A DNA stretch of 64,000 nt from Geothrix sp. SG200 (GTDB lineage: Bacteria; Acidobacteriota; Holophagae; Holophagales; Holophagaceae): contig NZ_JAKZFR010000006.1 in assembly GCF_022808935.1 (NCBI RefSeq), positions 1 to 64,000 on the forward strand, given 5' to 3'. Shown one piece after another: positions 9,388 through 54,074 of the stretch (position 1 is its first letter; each line of letters begins with the position of its first letter). The position numbers and the translations under genes are program-made. The notes below the pieces were generated by a model, which saw only the letters and a list, made by a program, of their open reading frames with translations, was not told where the DNA came from and ran no database searches.

Positions 9388-9418
9388 TTTCCTCTGCGCT
9401 CTCCGCGTTGTCTGCGGT
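9388..9418 (-). repeat. Copy of the GCAGAGAACGCGGAG intergenic repeat
   Basis: On the minus strand this reads ACCGCAGACAACGCGGAGAG followed by CGCAGAGGAAA. It matches the copy at 22609-22641 with one mismatch over about 30 bases. It sits just upstream of murJ, between the gene and tRNA-Thr. Two more copies bound the AT-rich islet at 22.6-23.5 kb. Confidence 0.75.
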
Positions 9419-9466
9419 GAAGGAACCGCCTGGGAAGCCGAACCGTGGAACTGGGTCCGGAAAGAC

Positions 9467-9542
9467 TGGAGCCGCTAGTCGGAATTGAACCAACGACCAT
9501 CCGCTTACAAGGCGGGCGCTCTACCAACTGAGCTATAGCGGC
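9467..9542 (-). tRNA. tRNA-Thr (anticodon TGT)
   Basis: 76 nt on the minus strand with an encoded CCA. Acceptor stem GCCGCTA/TAGCGGC, D stem GCTC/GAGC, anticodon loop CTTGTAA (anticodon TGT, reading ACA), T arm GTTGG-TTCAATT-CCGAC and discriminator U. The anticodon stem has an apparent C-A mismatch at its first pair (27-43); the other four pairs are canonical. A possible -10 hexamer TAGACT lies about 11 bases upstream. Confidence 0.96.
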
Positions 9543-22098: not shown

Positions 22099-22581
22099 AT
22101 GAGCGCCAAGGCGCCATCCACCAACGCCACGCGGCTGCTCCGGCAGGCGGGCGTGGCCTACACCGAGCACCTCTACCGCTACGAGGACCACGGCGGGACG
22201 GCCGTGAGCGCCCGGGAGCTGGGCGTGGATGAGCACGCGGTCATCAAGACGCTGGTGATGGAGGATGAGAAGGGCGTGCCGCTCGTCATCCTCATGCACG
22301 GCGATCGCGAGGTGAGCACGAAAGAACTGGCCCGCCAGGTCGGCGCGAAGACCGTGCAGCCCTGCAAGCCCGAGGTGGCCAACCGCCACAGCGGCTACCT
22401 GGTGGGCGGCACCAGCCCCCTCGGCACCAGGAAGGCCATGCCCATCCACGCCGAGGCCAGCATCTTCGTGCTGCCGAAGATCTATCTCAACGGCGGCAGC
22501 CGCGGCTTCCTTGTGGGGCTGGATCCGAAGGATCTGGAGCGGGTGTTGAAGATCGTCCGGGTGAACGTGGCGATTCCGTAG
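22099..22581 (+). CDS. ybaK: Cys-tRNA(Pro)/Cys-tRNA(Cys) deacylase, YbaK type
   Basis: 160 residues of the YbaK/EbsC editing-domain fold. The conserved lysine is in DEHAVIKTLVMEDE, and the C-terminal half has HSGYLVGGTSPLGTRKAMP and IYLNGGSRGFLVG, both typical of YbaK proper. It removes cysteine mischarged on tRNA(Pro) in trans. The start is the first ATG matching the family; it lies 52 bases from the divergent hemerythrin gene. Confidence 0.94.
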   Translation: MSAKAPSTNATRLLRQAGVAYTEHLYRYEDHGGTAVSARELGVDEHAVIKTLVMEDEKGVPLVILMHGDREVSTKELARQVGAKTVQPCKPEVANRHSGYLVGGTSPLGTRKAMPIHAEASIFVLPKIYLNGGSRGFLVGLDPKDLERVLKIVRVNVAIP

Positions 22582-22608: not shown

Positions 22609-22641
22609 AACCGCAGAGAACGCGGAGAGCGCAGAGGAATT
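22609..22641. repeat. Left 33-bp inverted repeat bounding the AT-rich islet
   Basis: AACCGCAGAGAACGCGGAGA followed by GCGCAGAGGAATT. The reverse complement of 23425-23457 matches it at 30 of 33 positions. A third, single copy lies at 9388-9418. Confidence 0.85.
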
Positions 22642-22718
22642 TTGTCAAAGACTGCCAGAGAAATCTCCGGCGCAAAGGGGGACTGAACTTTCGAAGATTT
22701 CATTGGTGGAACCGGCTC

Positions 22719-23018
22719 TCAATTACTGATGGGCGCCCGTAGCTTCTTTCCAGTTCTGTAAATGATCGTGATAATCACGATTGATCCGAAGAACACTGCT
22801 GTATCGAGCAATTCCCAGCCACCACCCGGAGATCCCACCTGACTGAATAGACCAGAACACCCGGGGGTCGCTCCGAGGATCCGTCCCAGACCATCTCTGT
22901 GCACCCCTGTCCTGGGATCTATATTTTCGACATAACCTACCAAGACAAGTGCCAGGGCCAAGCAGGCAGCGTAGAGAATCGCGATTCCTTGGAGGATCAA
23001 TCCAACACCTTTTCTCAT
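22719..23018 (-). CDS. Small membrane protein of unknown function
   Basis: 99 residues with two membrane segments (ILQGIAILYAACLALALVLVGY and TAVFFGSIVIITIIY, the first shown in part) separated by a polar loop with a single cysteine. No family recognised. Base composition is much more AT-rich than the rest of the window, with codons such as ATA and TTA that are otherwise rare. It follows the 110-residue lipoprotein-like gene by 4 bases, so the two form one operon. Likely acquired. Confidence 0.6.
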   Translation of the reverse strand: MRKGVGLILQGIAILYAACLALALVLVGYVENIDPRTGVHRDGLGRILGATPGCSGLFSQVGSPGGGWELLDTAVFFGSIVIITIIYRTGKKLRAPISN

Positions 23019-23022
23019 TGGC

Positions 23023-23355
23023 CTACTCCCTGTCGAATCCGTGACGAACGTCAGGGTTCTGATTGACGAAGGTGTTCAAACCACGTCCTTCTGAAGCAAG
23101 CGCCTTCATTTGATCAATTTTACTGGGGTGGATTCGCTTGGTTGAGTAGGTATAGACACGTTTGTTGCGGAAACGAATCTTGATGAATTCCTCTCCGATT
23201 TGGAATGCCTCGACACCGGATCGGTCGCTTCCCAGGTATGGCTGCCACTCGACATCTCTCGATGCACCCACCTCCTGCCTGCTCACGTTTGCCCAGTCGC
23301 ATCCACCAGAAATAAGGATGGCGCAGCCTATCGCAGCAACGACGATTTTGTTCAT
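23023..23355 (-). CDS. Putative lipoprotein with a KTSC-like domain
   Basis: 110 residues. A hydrophobic N-terminus ends in ILISGGCDW, a possible though not ideal lipobox. The C-terminal half (IKIRFRNKRVYTYSTKRI, then LASEGRGLNTFVNQN) resembles the small KTSC domain. AT-rich like its downstream neighbour. Both genes lie between two 33-bp inverted repeats. The function is unknown and the domain call is tentative. Confidence 0.55.
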   Translation of the reverse strand: MNKIVVAAIGCAILISGGCDWANVSRQEVGASRDVEWQPYLGSDRSGVEAFQIGEEFIKIRFRNKRVYTYSTKRIHPSKIDQMKALASEGRGLNTFVNQNPDVRHGFDRE

Positions 23356-23424
23356 GACGTATCCAAGATCATTGACGAAAAAGATACATCTTAGTTAGGT
23401 ACCGGTATCATTAATTTATCAACC

Positions 23425-23457
23425 AATTCCTCCGCGTTCTCTGCGTTCTCTGCGGTT
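23425..23457. repeat. Right 33-bp inverted repeat bounding the AT-rich islet
   Basis: AATTCCTCCGCGTTCTCTGC followed by GTTCTCTGCGGTT; reverse complement of the left copy with three mismatches. Ends 58 bases before the aldo/keto reductase gene. Confidence 0.85.
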
Positions 23458-23514: not shown

Positions 23515-24468
23515 ATGACGCACACCAGGCGCCCCCTCGGCCGGACCGGCCTCTCCATCTCCCCGCTGGTCTTTGGCGGCAATGTGTTCGGCTGGACCAT
23601 CGACAAGAAGACCTCGTTCGAGATCCTGGACCGCTTCGCGGGAGCGGGTTTCGAGGCCTTGGACACCGCCGACGTCTACTCGATCTGGAAGCCCGGGAAC
23701 CAGGGCGGCGAATCCGAGGCGATCATCGGGGAGTGGATGAAGGACCGCCGCTGCCGCGACCGGATCGTCCTCATCACCAAGGTGGGGATGGAGATGGGGC
23801 CGGATCGGAAGGGCCTGTCCGCGGCCTGGATCGAGCGCGCCGTGGAGGACTCCCTGCGCCGCCTCCAGACCGACCACATTGACGTCTACCTGTCCCACAA
23901 GTTCGATCCGGGCACGCCCCATGAGGAGACCCTTGCCGCCTACCAGAAGCTGATCGCCGCCGGGAAGGTGCGGGCCGTCGGGGCCTCCAACTACGACGCG
24001 GGCCAGTTGGGCGCGGCCCTCGGCGCCTCCGCCAAGGGCCTTCCCCGCTACGAGGTTCTGCAGCCGGAGTACAACCTGTACGACCGCCAGAGCTACGACG
24101 GCGCCCTCCGGGACCTCGCCATGGCCGAGGGGCTGGGCGTCATCACCTACTTCAGCCTGGCCAAGGGCTTCCTCAGCGGTAAGTACCGCAGCGAAGCGGA
24201 TCTCGGGAAGAGCCCGCGGGGGAAGGGGGTCAAGGGCTACCTGAACGAGCGGGGCTTCCGCATCCTGGGGGTGCTGGACACCGTGGCCGCGCGGCACGGG
24301 GCCAAGCCTGCGGAGGTGGCCCTGGCCTGGCTCATGGCGCGCCCCGGCGTCACGGCTCCCATCGCCAGCGCCACCAGCCTGGACCAGCTGGACAGCCTGA
24401 TCCGCGCGGCCTCGCTGACGCTGAGCGCCGAAGACATGGCCGCCCTGGAGACCGCCAGCCGGTACTGA
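23515..24468 (+). CDS. Aldo/keto reductase
   Basis: 317 residues of the (beta/alpha)8 AKR fold. Catalytic tetrad: Asp and Tyr in LDTADVYSIW, Lys in LITKVGMEMG, His in DVYLSHKFDPG. The start RRPLGRTGLSISPLVFGGN is typical of the AKR12/YajO-like oxidoreductases. NADPH is the likely cofactor, and aldehydes or ketones the substrates. The ATG follows TTCGGAGG. Single gene; convergent with the next. Confidence 0.93.
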   Translation: MTHTRRPLGRTGLSISPLVFGGNVFGWTIDKKTSFEILDRFAGAGFEALDTADVYSIWKPGNQGGESEAIIGEWMKDRRCRDRIVLITKVGMEMGPDRKGLSAAWIERAVEDSLRRLQTDHIDVYLSHKFDPGTPHEETLAAYQKLIAAGKVRAVGASNYDAGQLGAALGASAKGLPRYEVLQPEYNLYDRQSYDGALRDLAMAEGLGVITYFSLAKGFLSGKYRSEADLGKSPRGKGVKGYLNERGFRILGVLDTVAARHGAKPAEVALAWLMARPGVTAPIASATSLDQLDSLIRAASLTLSAEDMAALETASRY

Positions 24469-48600: not shown

Positions 48601-50790
48601 TCAAGGACGGTGGGGCGGGGGGAGCGGTGGAACGGGCGGGGCTTTTGGTTCCGAGTATCGCGGCCGGCTGATGTCAGGCATGGTTTCGTTGGGCCGGGTC
48701 CAGGGATACTGCAGGCGCCAGTGGATCACCCGATTCTGGTCCATCAGCAGGGTGAAGGCCTGGCGGGTGGTACGCGCCGCGTTCTGGGGATCCCGGGATA
48801 GGGTCTCGAAGTCGATCAGCCAACCCTCGATGTCCGGGCCGATGGCCTGGATCGCACGATCCTTTTCTTCCGACCTGGGCCAGTGGTTCGTGAAGGCGCG
48901 ATTCCACCGCCCCTTGCCTCGAACCTTCAGCTCCACGATGATCGCGGTGGCGCCCCAGGTGGTCTTGTCCACGACGGTCCGGACGAGGGGGCGGACCTCC
49001 TCCAGGGTGGGCTGGGGGCCGCTGTCCAGGGTCACGGGAGTGCCCGCCCTTTCCCCCGAAGCCGGGGCGTCAGGTCGGGGTTCCTGCGAAGGTGCGGCCG
49101 GGGCCAGGGGCTCGATGGTCAACAGGATCTGGATCTTTCCGTCGCTGGGGTACCCAGTTCTCGTCCATACGACGAAGTAGACGGTCGTGGGCGTGTCGCT
49201 CGTGTTGAGGAAGGCGGCTTCCGGGGTTCCGAGGCCATGGCGGCTGCCCTCGAACGGGGCGCCCCACTTGTTGAGGGCCCGGACCTCGAAATAGGCCAGG
49301 CTGGACTCGCTCTGGAGGGTGGCCCTGGCCAGGGACTGGCCGGGCACCTGCACCGCATAGCCCTTCTTCGGCCAGGTGAGCAGCTCGTCCCGGATGAGGA
49401 CGGGGCACGGGGGGGCCTGGAGGGTCCGGACGGCCGTCCCCGGCAGGATGGACAGGCTCTTCGCATCGACCACCGGGATGGCGATGGGCGCGGGATGGGC
49501 TTTCGTGGGAGCAGGATAAAACGTCTCTTTGGCGGGCGGCTGGGCCGGGCCGGGCTGCGTCTCGGAACCTGCCGGAGACGGAGGAGGTGTCATCACCGGC
49601 TCCTGGGCGACCGGGAGGGTGCCGGCAGGCCCTGCGGCGCGGGGAAGCGGCATGGACTCGAAGGGTGGAATGACCCGAGGATTCGAGGCAAAGGGATCGT
49701 GGGGGATGTCGGCCGCGACCGGCAGTGTCACGGTCCGATGGGACACGGCTTTCTCGATCCGGGTCAGGGCGGCTTCCAGTCGCTCCGCCTGGGCGGGGAG
49801 TGATGAGACCAGGGCCAGGGCGGCGACGAGGAGCAGGCTGGGCGTGGCGAAGCGCAGCTGGGGCGGGTCGGCGAGGAGCAGGCGGCGCAGGCGTTCCATG
49901 AGATTGCCTCCACTGGCGCGGAGTGCCAGGGACGGGGGCCGGTCGCGGAATTCATCGAGGCGGCTCAGGGTTTCGGCGTAGAAGACGGCGTCACCGCAGG
50001 CCAATACGGCGGCATCGTCACAGCAGTGTTCCCGTTCGGTCCGGATCCGGCGGGAGATCCACCACACGGCGGGGTGGAAGAAGAAGAGCACCTCGATCAC
50101 GCACTGGAGGCCGTTGACGAGGCCATCCAGGCGCTTGATGTGGGCGAGCTCGTGGGCCAGGACCGCCTCGGCGGCCAGGGGATCGAGGTTGGCGAAGAAG
50201 CCCAGGGGCAGGAGGATGACCGGGCGCAGGAGGCCCATGCACATGGGGGTTGCCACCCGGGCGGACTCGACGAAGCGCACCGCGCGGCGGAGGGCGGCGC
50301 TGCGGACCAGGCGCCCGAGCCAAGGCGGCTCGACGATGGACGTAGCCGCGGCCTTCAGGCGGCGCAGCCAGAGCCATCCACCCACCGTGCGAAGGCTGAA
50401 GGCCAGGACACCCGCGACCCATGCGGCCAGGATCCAGGGCAGGTACGGCTGCAGACGGGCCTGCCAGGGGAGGGTGGTCGTCAAGGGTGCGGCTGCGGAC
50501 GCCACGAGCGGTGTGGAGGGGGCCTCTGGAGAGCCCGGAAGCAGGGCGAAGCTCAGGCCCTGACCCGGAACATGAGGAACCGGCGAGAGCAGCATGAAGG
50601 TGGTGATCGCGCTCCCCAGGCAGGCCAGGAGGAAGGCGCAACCCGCCAGATGGCGAAGCTGGGGGGCCCGTCGCTTGAAGAGCGAGAACGCCACCCAGGC
50701 CGCCAGGCCCAGCAGGGCGCCCTGCCACAGGAAGTGGAGCAGGGTCCAGGCGAGGCGCTGGGCCGCGGGCGATTCGAGCAGGGGGATCAC
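48601..50790 (-). CDS. M56 (BlaR1-type) membrane metalloprotease sensor B
   Basis: 729 residues. The N-terminal 340 are closely similar to sensor A: same opening, HELAH at 213-217, EREHCCDDAAV, same membrane segments. It then has a longer extracytoplasmic part: a linker, a middle domain (ILPGTAVRTLQAPPCPVLIR to YFVVWTRTGYPSDGKIQILL) absent from A, and the C-terminal domain shared with A (GPQPTLEEVRPLVRTVVDKT to MDQNRVIHWRLQYPW). GTG start overlapping the repressor stop (GTGA). No penicillin-binding domain. Signal unknown. Confidence 0.87.
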   Translation of the reverse strand: MIPLLESPAAQRLAWTLLHFLWQGALLGLAAWVAFSLFKRRAPQLRHLAGCAFLLACLGSAITTFMLLSPVPHVPGQGLSFALLPGSPEAPSTPLVASAAAPLTTTLPWQARLQPYLPWILAAWVAGVLAFSLRTVGGWLWLRRLKAAATSIVEPPWLGRLVRSAALRRAVRFVESARVATPMCMGLLRPVILLPLGFFANLDPLAAEAVLAHELAHIKRLDGLVNGLQCVIEVLFFFHPAVWWISRRIRTEREHCCDDAAVLACGDAVFYAETLSRLDEFRDRPPSLALRASGGNLMERLRRLLLADPPQLRFATPSLLLVAALALVSSLPAQAERLEAALTRIEKAVSHRTVTLPVAADIPHDPFASNPRVIPPFESMPLPRAAGPAGTLPVAQEPVMTPPPSPAGSETQPGPAQPPAKETFYPAPTKAHPAPIAIPVVDAKSLSILPGTAVRTLQAPPCPVLIRDELLTWPKKGYAVQVPGQSLARATLQSESSLAYFEVRALNKWGAPFEGSRHGLGTPEAAFLNTSDTPTTVYFVVWTRTGYPSDGKIQILLTIEPLAPAAPSQEPRPDAPASGERAGTPVTLDSGPQPTLEEVRPLVRTVVDKTTWGATAIIVELKVRGKGRWNRAFTNHWPRSEEKDRAIQAIGPDIEGWLIDFETLSRDPQNAARTTRQAFTLLMDQNRVIHWRLQYPWTRPNETMPDISRPRYSEPKAPPVPPLPPPHRP

Positions 50791-51780: not shown

Positions 51781-54074
51781 CCTGGATGGCTTCCCCGCTC
51801 ATGGCTCGTTTGGGGTGGACCCTGATCCATTTCATCTGGGAGGGTGCGCTTCTGGCGGGCCTGTTGGCCATAGCGTTCTGGCTCACCACCGGAAGGTCGC
51901 CGCGACTGAGGTACGGGCTCGCATGCCTGGCGCTGACGATGATGGCCGCCTCTCCAGTGGCGACTTGGCAGTGGCTTGGCCATGTGGCGCCCCGTGCGGG
52001 GGCGCCACCGATCCGGGCCCTGGCCGAGGGCTCTGGAGCCCACCAGCCCACCGGTCAAATCTCCGCGGTTCCGGAAGTGCCACCGCGTCCAGGGAACCCC
52101 GTGGCCTGGTTGCCCATCTGCGTCGCCATCTGGATGGCAGGGGTTGCTCTCTTGAGCCTGCGGCTGGCAGGCCGCTGGGCTTGGCTGCAGTGGCTTCGCC
52201 ATCGGCCGGAGACTGTGGCAGTCGAGGACGATATCCAGCTCCGGCTCCTGCGGCTGTGTCAGCGCATGCGCCTGGCCAGCAACATCCGGATGCTCCTCTG
52301 CAATCGAGTGTCGGGACCCACGGTGATGGGCTGGCTTCGGCCCGTGATCCTCGTCCCGCCCGCTGCTTTGCTTGGGATGCCACCGGACCAGATGGAGCTG
52401 GTGCTGGCCCACGAACTGGCCCACATCCTGCGCCATGATTTCGCCATCAACCTCATTCAGTCTTGCATCGAAGTGCTGCTCTTCTACCACCCGGCCGTGT
52501 GGTGGGTCTCCGCGAAGATCCGTCAGGAACGGGAGCTGTGCTGCGACGATCTGGCGGTGCGAACGACGGGGGACGCCCTGGACTATGCCGCCGCGCTCAC
52601 CCGGCTGGAGGCCCTTTGCCGCCCACCGGATCCCCCACGACACGTCGCCCAGGCTCTGGCCGTGGGCGCCATCGGAGGTTCGTTCATGCACCGCATTCGT
52701 CGACTTGTTTCACCCATGGCCCCGATCCCCCTGGCTCCACGCGCGGGAGTGGTCGTGGCGCTACTGATCGGTTTTTCCTTCATGCTTCATGCCGCCCGGC
52801 CCCAGGAGGCGGTGTCCACCTCTGGAAACGAACTCGTCCTCCGACGGTTCAATGACTCCAGTTCCGACGGCGTGGCCAAGGCCGGTCAGGTCGCCTTCGA
52901 CGGGGTCCGAGTGCCAGCAGAATTCGGTCTACAGGCGCTTGACCGACTTTCATCCATTCCAGCCAGCGGACCGGTCACAGAGCTTCGATTGCCCATCCCC
53001 ACAGAACCCAAGCCGGAAATCGGGCCTTATTCTTACAACTTTCCGGCGGTGGACCCTTCCGAACTACGCCTGATTCTTGAAAACCATGCCCAAGAGAAAC
53101 GGCTGACTCTCCAATCCTGCCCGTTGCATGGGGTGATCATCCGCCGCCTGAATGCTGCAACACCCAAGTTCAGTCCGCTCCCGGGCAAATCCAGGTTGTC
53201 TGTTGTCGCGAAGGAGGCTGGTCTAGATCTCGTGGATGCCGCACTCAGGGAATTAGCCGATTTGAAGCCCGCGCCGTTCCTTTTCCAGAGGGTCGAGAAA
53301 TCAGGTCGGGCACCTTCAATGGGTGATCGGGCGCTCACCATCGAACTCAGTGATGTGAACCCGGACGAGCTCCGCATGGTCCTGGATGCCGAGCGTACGA
53401 AACCGGCACCGTCCGCGGGGACAGGCCAAGTGGCCGGGACCGAGCTTTCTCCCCATTTCGTCAGCGGGCAGAGGCCGCCGGAAGGCACGATGTGGCTCCG
53501 CCGCTATGACCGCGATTCGGCGGATGACCTCCGTCGCGCAGGAACGATCTACGTCCACGTGAACACGGTCCCGTTCGGAAGCTTGATGCAGGCCTTGAAA
53601 CAGCTCGACCAGGCGCCGGCGGACCCATCCAAGGGCTATGTGGACCTGGATCTGAAGGCCGATCCTAAGGCCAAGGATCCACATGGCCTTTGGACCTACC
53701 TGTTTCTGGGCGTGGACCCCGTAAGGGTCGAGCGTGTGGTTCTGGCCCGGGCCACCTTCCGTTCCCTCAATCCTGAGGACAAGAAACCCGGCACCATCGT
53801 CATGCAGCGGATGGCCAGGTTCACCGCCCAGCTCGGCGTGATCCCAGAAGGGCTGAACGTGCAGGTGTGGGCTGGGAATGTCCCGGCGCCGGCAGTGCTG
53901 CAGGCCCTCCAACAGCTGTTGGCAAGGCAGCCGGAGGCCGGGATCCCGCAGGAAGTCCGGGTGCAGGTGCCTCCGGACGAGCCTGGGGCCCGGATCACCT
54001 TGGACCTCAAGGACAAGAACCCCTCCGCGCTCTGGGACGAGTTGAACAAGGTCATCAGGACAGAGAAGCCCTGA
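51777..54074 (+). CDS. M56 (BlaR1-type) membrane metalloprotease sensor C with a repetitive extracytoplasmic domain
   Basis: 765 residues. M56 core at 1-350: membrane segments near 12-37, 46-65, 110-130 and 223-245, HELAH at 212-216, then ERELCCDDLAV. The remaining 410 or so residues are extracytoplasmic and unlike sensors A/B. They contain four spaced segments of one pattern: VDPSELRLILE, VNPDELRMVLD, VDPVRVERVVL and KNPSALWDELN, each after a strand such as LTIELSD or ITLDLKD. This resembles the short secretin/TonB N-terminal (STN) fold, an inference. No penicillin-binding domain. Coupled to repressor C. Confidence 0.85.
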   Translation: MTWMASPLMARLGWTLIHFIWEGALLAGLLAIAFWLTTGRSPRLRYGLACLALTMMAASPVATWQWLGHVAPRAGAPPIRALAEGSGAHQPTGQISAVPEVPPRPGNPVAWLPICVAIWMAGVALLSLRLAGRWAWLQWLRHRPETVAVEDDIQLRLLRLCQRMRLASNIRMLLCNRVSGPTVMGWLRPVILVPPAALLGMPPDQMELVLAHELAHILRHDFAINLIQSCIEVLLFYHPAVWWVSAKIRQERELCCDDLAVRTTGDALDYAAALTRLEALCRPPDPPRHVAQALAVGAIGGSFMHRIRRLVSPMAPIPLAPRAGVVVALLIGFSFMLHAARPQEAVSTSGNELVLRRFNDSSSDGVAKAGQVAFDGVRVPAEFGLQALDRLSSIPASGPVTELRLPIPTEPKPEIGPYSYNFPAVDPSELRLILENHAQEKRLTLQSCPLHGVIIRRLNAATPKFSPLPGKSRLSVVAKEAGLDLVDAALRELADLKPAPFLFQRVEKSGRAPSMGDRALTIELSDVNPDELRMVLDAERTKPAPSAGTGQVAGTELSPHFVSGQRPPEGTMWLRRYDRDSADDLRRAGTIYVHVNTVPFGSLMQALKQLDQAPADPSKGYVDLDLKADPKAKDPHGLWTYLFLGVDPVRVERVVLARATFRSLNPEDKKPGTIVMQRMARFTAQLGVIPEGLNVQVWAGNVPAPAVLQALQQLLARQPEAGIPQEVRVQVPPDEPGARITLDLKDKNPSALWDELNKVIRTEKP

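Follow-up and report, generated by a model that had tools for sequence, protein, structure and literature searches.

An AT-rich two-gene islet in Geothrix sp. SG200, framed by hairpin-repeat arms of a kind that also flanks GxxExxY nuclease genes

An AT-rich segment holding two small genes in Geothrix sp. SG200 lies between inverted copies of a repeat that occurs elsewhere as bare hairpins, or as arms on either side of genes for the GxxExxY nuclease family. The explanation that we favor, and to which we give an even chance of being right, is that a hairpin resident at the site took up foreign DNA between its arms, and that this hairpin belongs to a family of palindromic elements associated with GxxExxY genes.

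Results

The islet (Table 1) was analyzed within the window, that is, the whole stretch of 64,000 nucleotides under study. Its arms are 33 nt long, 91% complementary, and spaced 783 nt apart. Their ungapped inverted-repeat score of 24 was not reached when the window was shuffled 40 times under a Markov-1 model (top score 18), ruling out a chance origin of the pair. It is the sole pair of its kind within the 64 kb; a longer inverted similarity of 112 bp (50053-50164 and 52400-52511) probably represents two related genes in opposite orientation. The cargo has a G+C content of 0.501, versus 0.687 for the whole window, and only 17 of 4493 tiles of 783 bp, taken from the window and from 400 kb of sampled host sequence (median 0.686), were as low; inside the window, tiles with a G+C of 0.53 or less occur only at the islet. 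Thus, the preliminary description of an AT-rich, two-gene islet bounded by inverted repeats is borne out by both repeat score and composition. No target-site duplication was seen around the arms or around the cargo, and family searches of both cargo ORFs revealed no transposase in cis.

Table 1. Positions in the window of the islet, its genes and neighbors, and the solitary arm copy.
Feature	Position	Strand	Remarks
Solitary arm copy	9389..9421	-	Partner not found; 45 bp from tRNA-Thr gene (9467-9542)
Left flanking gene	22099..22581	+	Presumably ybaK/prolyl-tRNA-deacylase-like; stop 27 nt ahead of left arm
Left arm	22609..22641	+	Three ~9-nt units: AACCGCAGA GAACGCGGA GAGCGCAGAGGAATT
Cargo between arms	22642..23424	no strand	783 bp; G+C 0.501; missing from 40 relatives
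Membrane-protein-like ORF	22719..23018	-	99 aa; two hydrophobic stretches (by eye); relatives not found
Lipoprotein-like ORF	23023..23355	-	110 aa; lipobox-like start ISGGC (by eye); small C-terminal domain
Right arm	23425..23457	-	Inverted copy of left arm, 30/33
Right flanking gene	23515..24468	+	Presumably aldo/keto-reductase-like; beyond right arm

Scanning the 3.36 Mb genome with the arm pattern gave 30 matches, versus one for the reversed pattern that served as control. Twenty of these matches make up ten inverted pairs with a total span of 65-140 bp, at spots that look intergenic, while eight were without a partner at the threshold used; by eye, three unpaired copies show a decayed partner. 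The third, solitary copy reported earlier is present and unpaired, but the repeat is far from limited to three copies, given the approximately 30 arm matches genome-wide. Four bare hairpins, three from this genome and one from the relative G044, all folded better than their shuffles (z -3.5 to -10). The islet stands apart from such hairpins in having 783 bp in place of the loop. Arms inside one element of this genome are no more alike (24.4/29) than arms of different elements (24.6/29), and for this reason the close match of the islet arms was rejected as, by itself, proof of a single origin.

Exact matches to the arm pattern came from Acidobacteriota, Cyanobacteria, Verrucomicrobia, Phycisphaerae, Beta- and Deltaproteobacteria, and an Anaerolinea. 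The same-genus genome G004 had approximately 98 matches, several of which were nested or clustered (loci L123-L127), versus 18-30 in the five other genomes counted. At another locus (L121, G045:C5:234354-234648) a hairpin of another kind lies within the loop of a CGCAGAG hairpin, so that these elements nest in loops. Three viral contigs (L367, L375, L345) each bear many unit-built inverted repeats between phage genes.

The cargo is filled by two ORFs on the minus strand, one of 110 aa and the other of 99 aa. The membrane ORF begins 4 bp past the end of the lipoprotein ORF, and hence the two probably form one operon and would be expressed together. The cargo had no match in any of 40 relatives, 24 of them from the same genus, ruling out an islet that is conserved among relatives. 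The earlier view of the cargo as foreign-looking is therefore supported, being specific to this genome, and the situation that would have spoken against it, genes and repeats kept together in distant relatives at normal composition, did not occur.

The C-terminal domain of the lipoprotein-like ORF had approximately 30-40% identity to short proteins of 10 other genomes (396 genomes of the phylum were searched, this one included), and was found at this level of identity in plasmid-borne proteins (eight records) and jumbo-phage proteins (60 records, some annotated as structural) as well; it matched phrog_17428 (E 1.2e-10). Its conserved residues speak for the 110-aa ORF being a real gene. Pfam, NCBIfam, and PADLOC had no family for either ORF, and neither had relatives in the viral collections searched with both. 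For the 99-aa membrane ORF there were no convincing relatives: a plasmid search returned none, and the sole match in the phylum was to a segment of a larger membrane protein, which we took to reflect composition. As a separate matter, the lipoprotein-domain family was considered as a usual traveler between arms and rejected, since none of the 10 loci with domain relatives have unit-built arms around them.

A lead to the arm family came from relatives, in which two long-spaced pairs of islet-type arms each enclose a GxxExxY gene, while a third pair encloses a truncated piece of one. The enclosed protein was identified as TIGR04256 (124 bits) and as PF13366 PDDEXK_3 (E 3e-35). We looked at 49 GxxExxY loci of the genus, three of which were too near a contig end, and counted a gene as framed if inverted arms scoring at least 18 were located within 350 bp. 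Framing was found at 38 of the 46 evaluated loci versus 0 of 18 control loci, with median scores of 22.5 and 9, respectively. A phylum search added 24 further loci, of which 21 were evaluable; 15 of these reached a score of 18 and 19 reached a looser cut of 14, and the G+C content of the nuclease gene was below that of its flanks in all 21. GxxExxY genes were present in 138 of the 396 Acidobacteriota genomes searched.

The arms around GxxExxY genes are built of tandem units of 7-12 nt, a build that the islet arms share. Arm sequences vary among loci (CACGGAGACACGGAG, CACCGATGAACACCGATG, CAGGATTAACAGGATT, and others), yet match inside each locus. The islet arm type itself was located around a GxxExxY gene in five relatives (G017, G009, G004, G007, G055) and in a deltaproteobacterium (L311). 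No GxxExxY gene with the islet arm type was found in the host genome, whose five GxxExxY genes bear other arms, and between the islet arms there is none, neither cargo ORF matching NCBIfam or Pfam. The lack of a family match makes the islet an element of this family with other cargo, rather than a nuclease cassette.

For 44 loci with both protein and arms available, we compared arm similarity with nuclease protein identity, setting aside the 35 pairs whose flanks are homologous. At the remaining pairs, which have unrelated flanks, the two were correlated (r 0.418), a value reached in 0 of 2000 permutations. Arms were shared by all four locus pairs at 75% protein identity or above, and by only two of 561 pairs below 45%. 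Only 14 of 44 loci shared an arm with their nearest non-orthologous protein neighbor, so that arm and nuclease are only loosely linked outside close relatives. The nuclease core is intact, with D in 44/44 rows, E in 43/44, and K in 44/44, residues that we take to be catalytic. Values of dN/dS in six locus pairs (0.05-0.12) indicate that GxxExxY genes are under selection.

Several details of arm placement were noted along the way. At L158 and L123, there is little room between the arms beyond that taken up by the GxxExxY gene; by eye, one inner arm edge provides GGAG at the expected position of the ribosome-binding site, and the stop codon is located at the other. At L180 and L187, both GxxExxY loci, a CATGGGGGGCGCCAGGG palindrome is nested in both arms. 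Free-standing four-helix-bundle genes (TIGR02436; L161-L178) were framed by inverted repeats of 7-nt units at eight of 13 evaluated loci, out of 18.

The islet site could be compared in 11 relatives that keep both flanking genes recognisably together, with G007 represented on two contig ends. Three (G041, G044, G055) have a bare hairpin whose units are related in sequence but not the same, and which begins approximately 30 nt past the ybaK-like stop, as the islet does. In G017, G002, and G043 there are short sequences that, by eye, resemble a leftover right-arm end, and in G045, G014, G006, and G024 nothing is present. In G007, an arm adjoins each flanking gene on two separate contigs, and different sequence follows on the inner side until the contigs break off; by eye this insert appears to have an IS110 transposase-like end there, for which Pfam and plasmid searches gave no confirmation. 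Several relatives have lost sequence at the site. On the tree of the two flanking genes the states were scattered: the three states needed six changes, a fit that shuffled labels equal. Hence repeated insertion at a favored site and a single old hairpin with subsequent losses account for the pattern equally well. Insertion by recombination between repeats, as proposed earlier, predicted one repeat left behind in relatives and was not borne out: in these the site is clean or holds either decayed remnants of arms or an entire bare hairpin.

A second site provided further insight into the range of states. There, arms of the islet type frame a GxxExxY gene in G017, G007, G055, G004, and G009, while the host genome and G044, G002, G053, and G015 have an empty gap of 16 bp. 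A bare hairpin of another arm type occupies it in G016 and G023, short hairpins were discerned by eye in G047, G019, and G057, and ordinary genes without arms are present in G045, G014, G046, G051, G018, and G001. Across species, then, a single site may be found empty, with a hairpin, or with a gene enclosed by arms as a cassette. The islet has the last of these forms, with other cargo.

Finally, we surveyed 800 kb of the host genome and two relatives, together with 116 loci bearing arms, drawn from collections of genomes and of viruses. The search for other repeat pairs with unrelated cargo, suggested in the preliminary description, came up without a clear AT-rich, non-nuclease coding case in these 800 kb and 116 loci. 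The one further clear case of small cargo was again a GxxExxY gene, in the deltaproteobacterial locus L311, and three ORFs between arms (L257, TIR-like; L359; L362) were ambiguous because arms are frequent there. Coding cargo other than the nuclease is thus rare, which makes the islet unusual.

Discussion

Under the explanation that we favor, the two islet repeats would be the arms of one palindromic element whose other family members are bare or frame a GxxExxY gene. The hairpin would have resided between the two flanking genes before the cargo arrived, although this order of events is our reconstruction. It may then have been opened, whether through attack on its arms by a cognate GxxExxY nuclease, a role suggested by the association of the two, or by an ordinary break in the palindrome, and would have been repaired with foreign AT-rich DNA holding the two-gene operon. 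Because relatives have hairpins or arm remains at this very spot, and the cargo is known nowhere else, capture is most likely, in preference to arrival as a unit. A point against it is the shortness of what is left of the arm in G017, G002, and G043.

Arrival as a unit would mean that arms and cargo came as one, with an arm-recognizing GxxExxY nuclease moving them in trans, making the islet a passenger version of the arm-nuclease-arm arrangement. We regard this as unlikely, albeit with several observations in its favor. Compact nuclease cassettes framed by the same arms occupy one site in some species and are missing from it in others, the nuclease gene, like the islet cargo, is lower in G+C than its flanks throughout the 21 phylum loci, and arm similarity follows nuclease similarity despite unrelated flanks, as expected if arms and gene travel or evolve together. 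To this extent the earlier reading of the repeats as cassette ends holds for the arm family. It does not extend to mobilization of the islet cargo: no second copy was found at another site in the host genome or in the 40 relatives, the surveys above gave no other clear cargo of the kind, and the cognate nuclease was not found in the host genome.

It is improbable, in our estimation, that two separate hairpin elements, each cut down to one arm, flank a foreign insertion by chance. Arms are interchangeable in sequence and unpaired arm matches do occur in the genome, but only approximately 0.006 inverted pairs within 850 bp would be expected by chance (a simple estimate from ten unpaired arms in 3.36 Mb). 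Least probable of all is an old native gene pair amid ordinary hairpins that was lost from relatives, for although sequence loss is seen at the site in several of them, the cargo is missing from all 24 same-genus genomes searched, requiring many losses, and its composition is strongly off.

Taken together, the observations suggest that common hairpin repeats can serve as the ends of tiny genetic cassettes. A broader proposition, which we put forward tentatively and with more doubt than confidence, is that GxxExxY proteins may be the mobilizing or maintaining nucleases of widespread palindromic elements, each nuclease lineage having its own arm type, as a PD-(D/E)XK counterpart of RAYT/REPIN; bare hairpins would then be non-autonomous copies, and the islet would be a passenger version with which two foreign genes came in. 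Were arms and GxxExxY linked, a function could be assigned both to a nuclease family that is so far unnamed and to a 'junk' repeat that is very common, and the islet would show that such elements are able to hold foreign genes, providing small-scale gene gain without a classical transposon. In the openly accessible literature, we found no link between GxxExxY and palindromic repeats, the mentions of GxxExxY not being about repeats, and nothing was found for PDDEXK_3.

Among known systems, insertion sequences and miniature inverted-repeat elements (MITEs) share with the islet and its relatives a site that is occupied in some close relatives and empty in others. Bare hairpins are like MITEs in being small, non-coding, bounded by terminal inverted repeats, and scattered between genes, but are unlike MITEs in that neither a parent transposase with these ends nor a target duplication was found, and in that the ends differ from locus to locus while matching within each locus (PMC10969869). 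The GxxExxY loci (TIGR04256 / PF13366 PDDEXK_3) of five relatives and one deltaproteobacterium have the same arm type as the islet, which differs from them in being without a GxxExxY gene. Inverted repeats also frame a small gene in the intervening sequences of 23S rRNA, as they do in the islet and at the free-standing four-helix-bundle loci noted above, but the islet lies outside rRNA and has other cargo. Such intervening sequences with an S23 / four-helix-bundle ORF have been described (PMC4990558).

The closest described system is REPIN/RAYT. REPINs are short extragenic palindromes that form inverted pairs (hairpins) in many copies (PMC3116915, PMC2817692), and RAYTs are single-copy genes of a DNA-processing enzyme family that stand beside copies of the same repeat, with several arm classes each having their own enzyme (PMC3116915). 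The elements described here share these traits, their arm repeats likewise occurring mostly in inverted pairs (20/30 matches in the host genome). The differences are that the enzyme associated with the arms here is GxxExxY (PD-(D/E)XK-like), whereas RAYT is a Y1 HUH transposase; that the arms here consist of repeated 7-12-nt units; that the GxxExxY gene is located between arms, whereas RAYT is beside a repeat cluster; and that the islet is without any enzyme gene. No Y1 HUH transposase was found at the islet, its cargo ORFs being without a family match and the flanking genes being other enzymes by eye. For REPINs, it has been suggested that those taking up DNA useful to the host would gain an advantage (PMC3116915).
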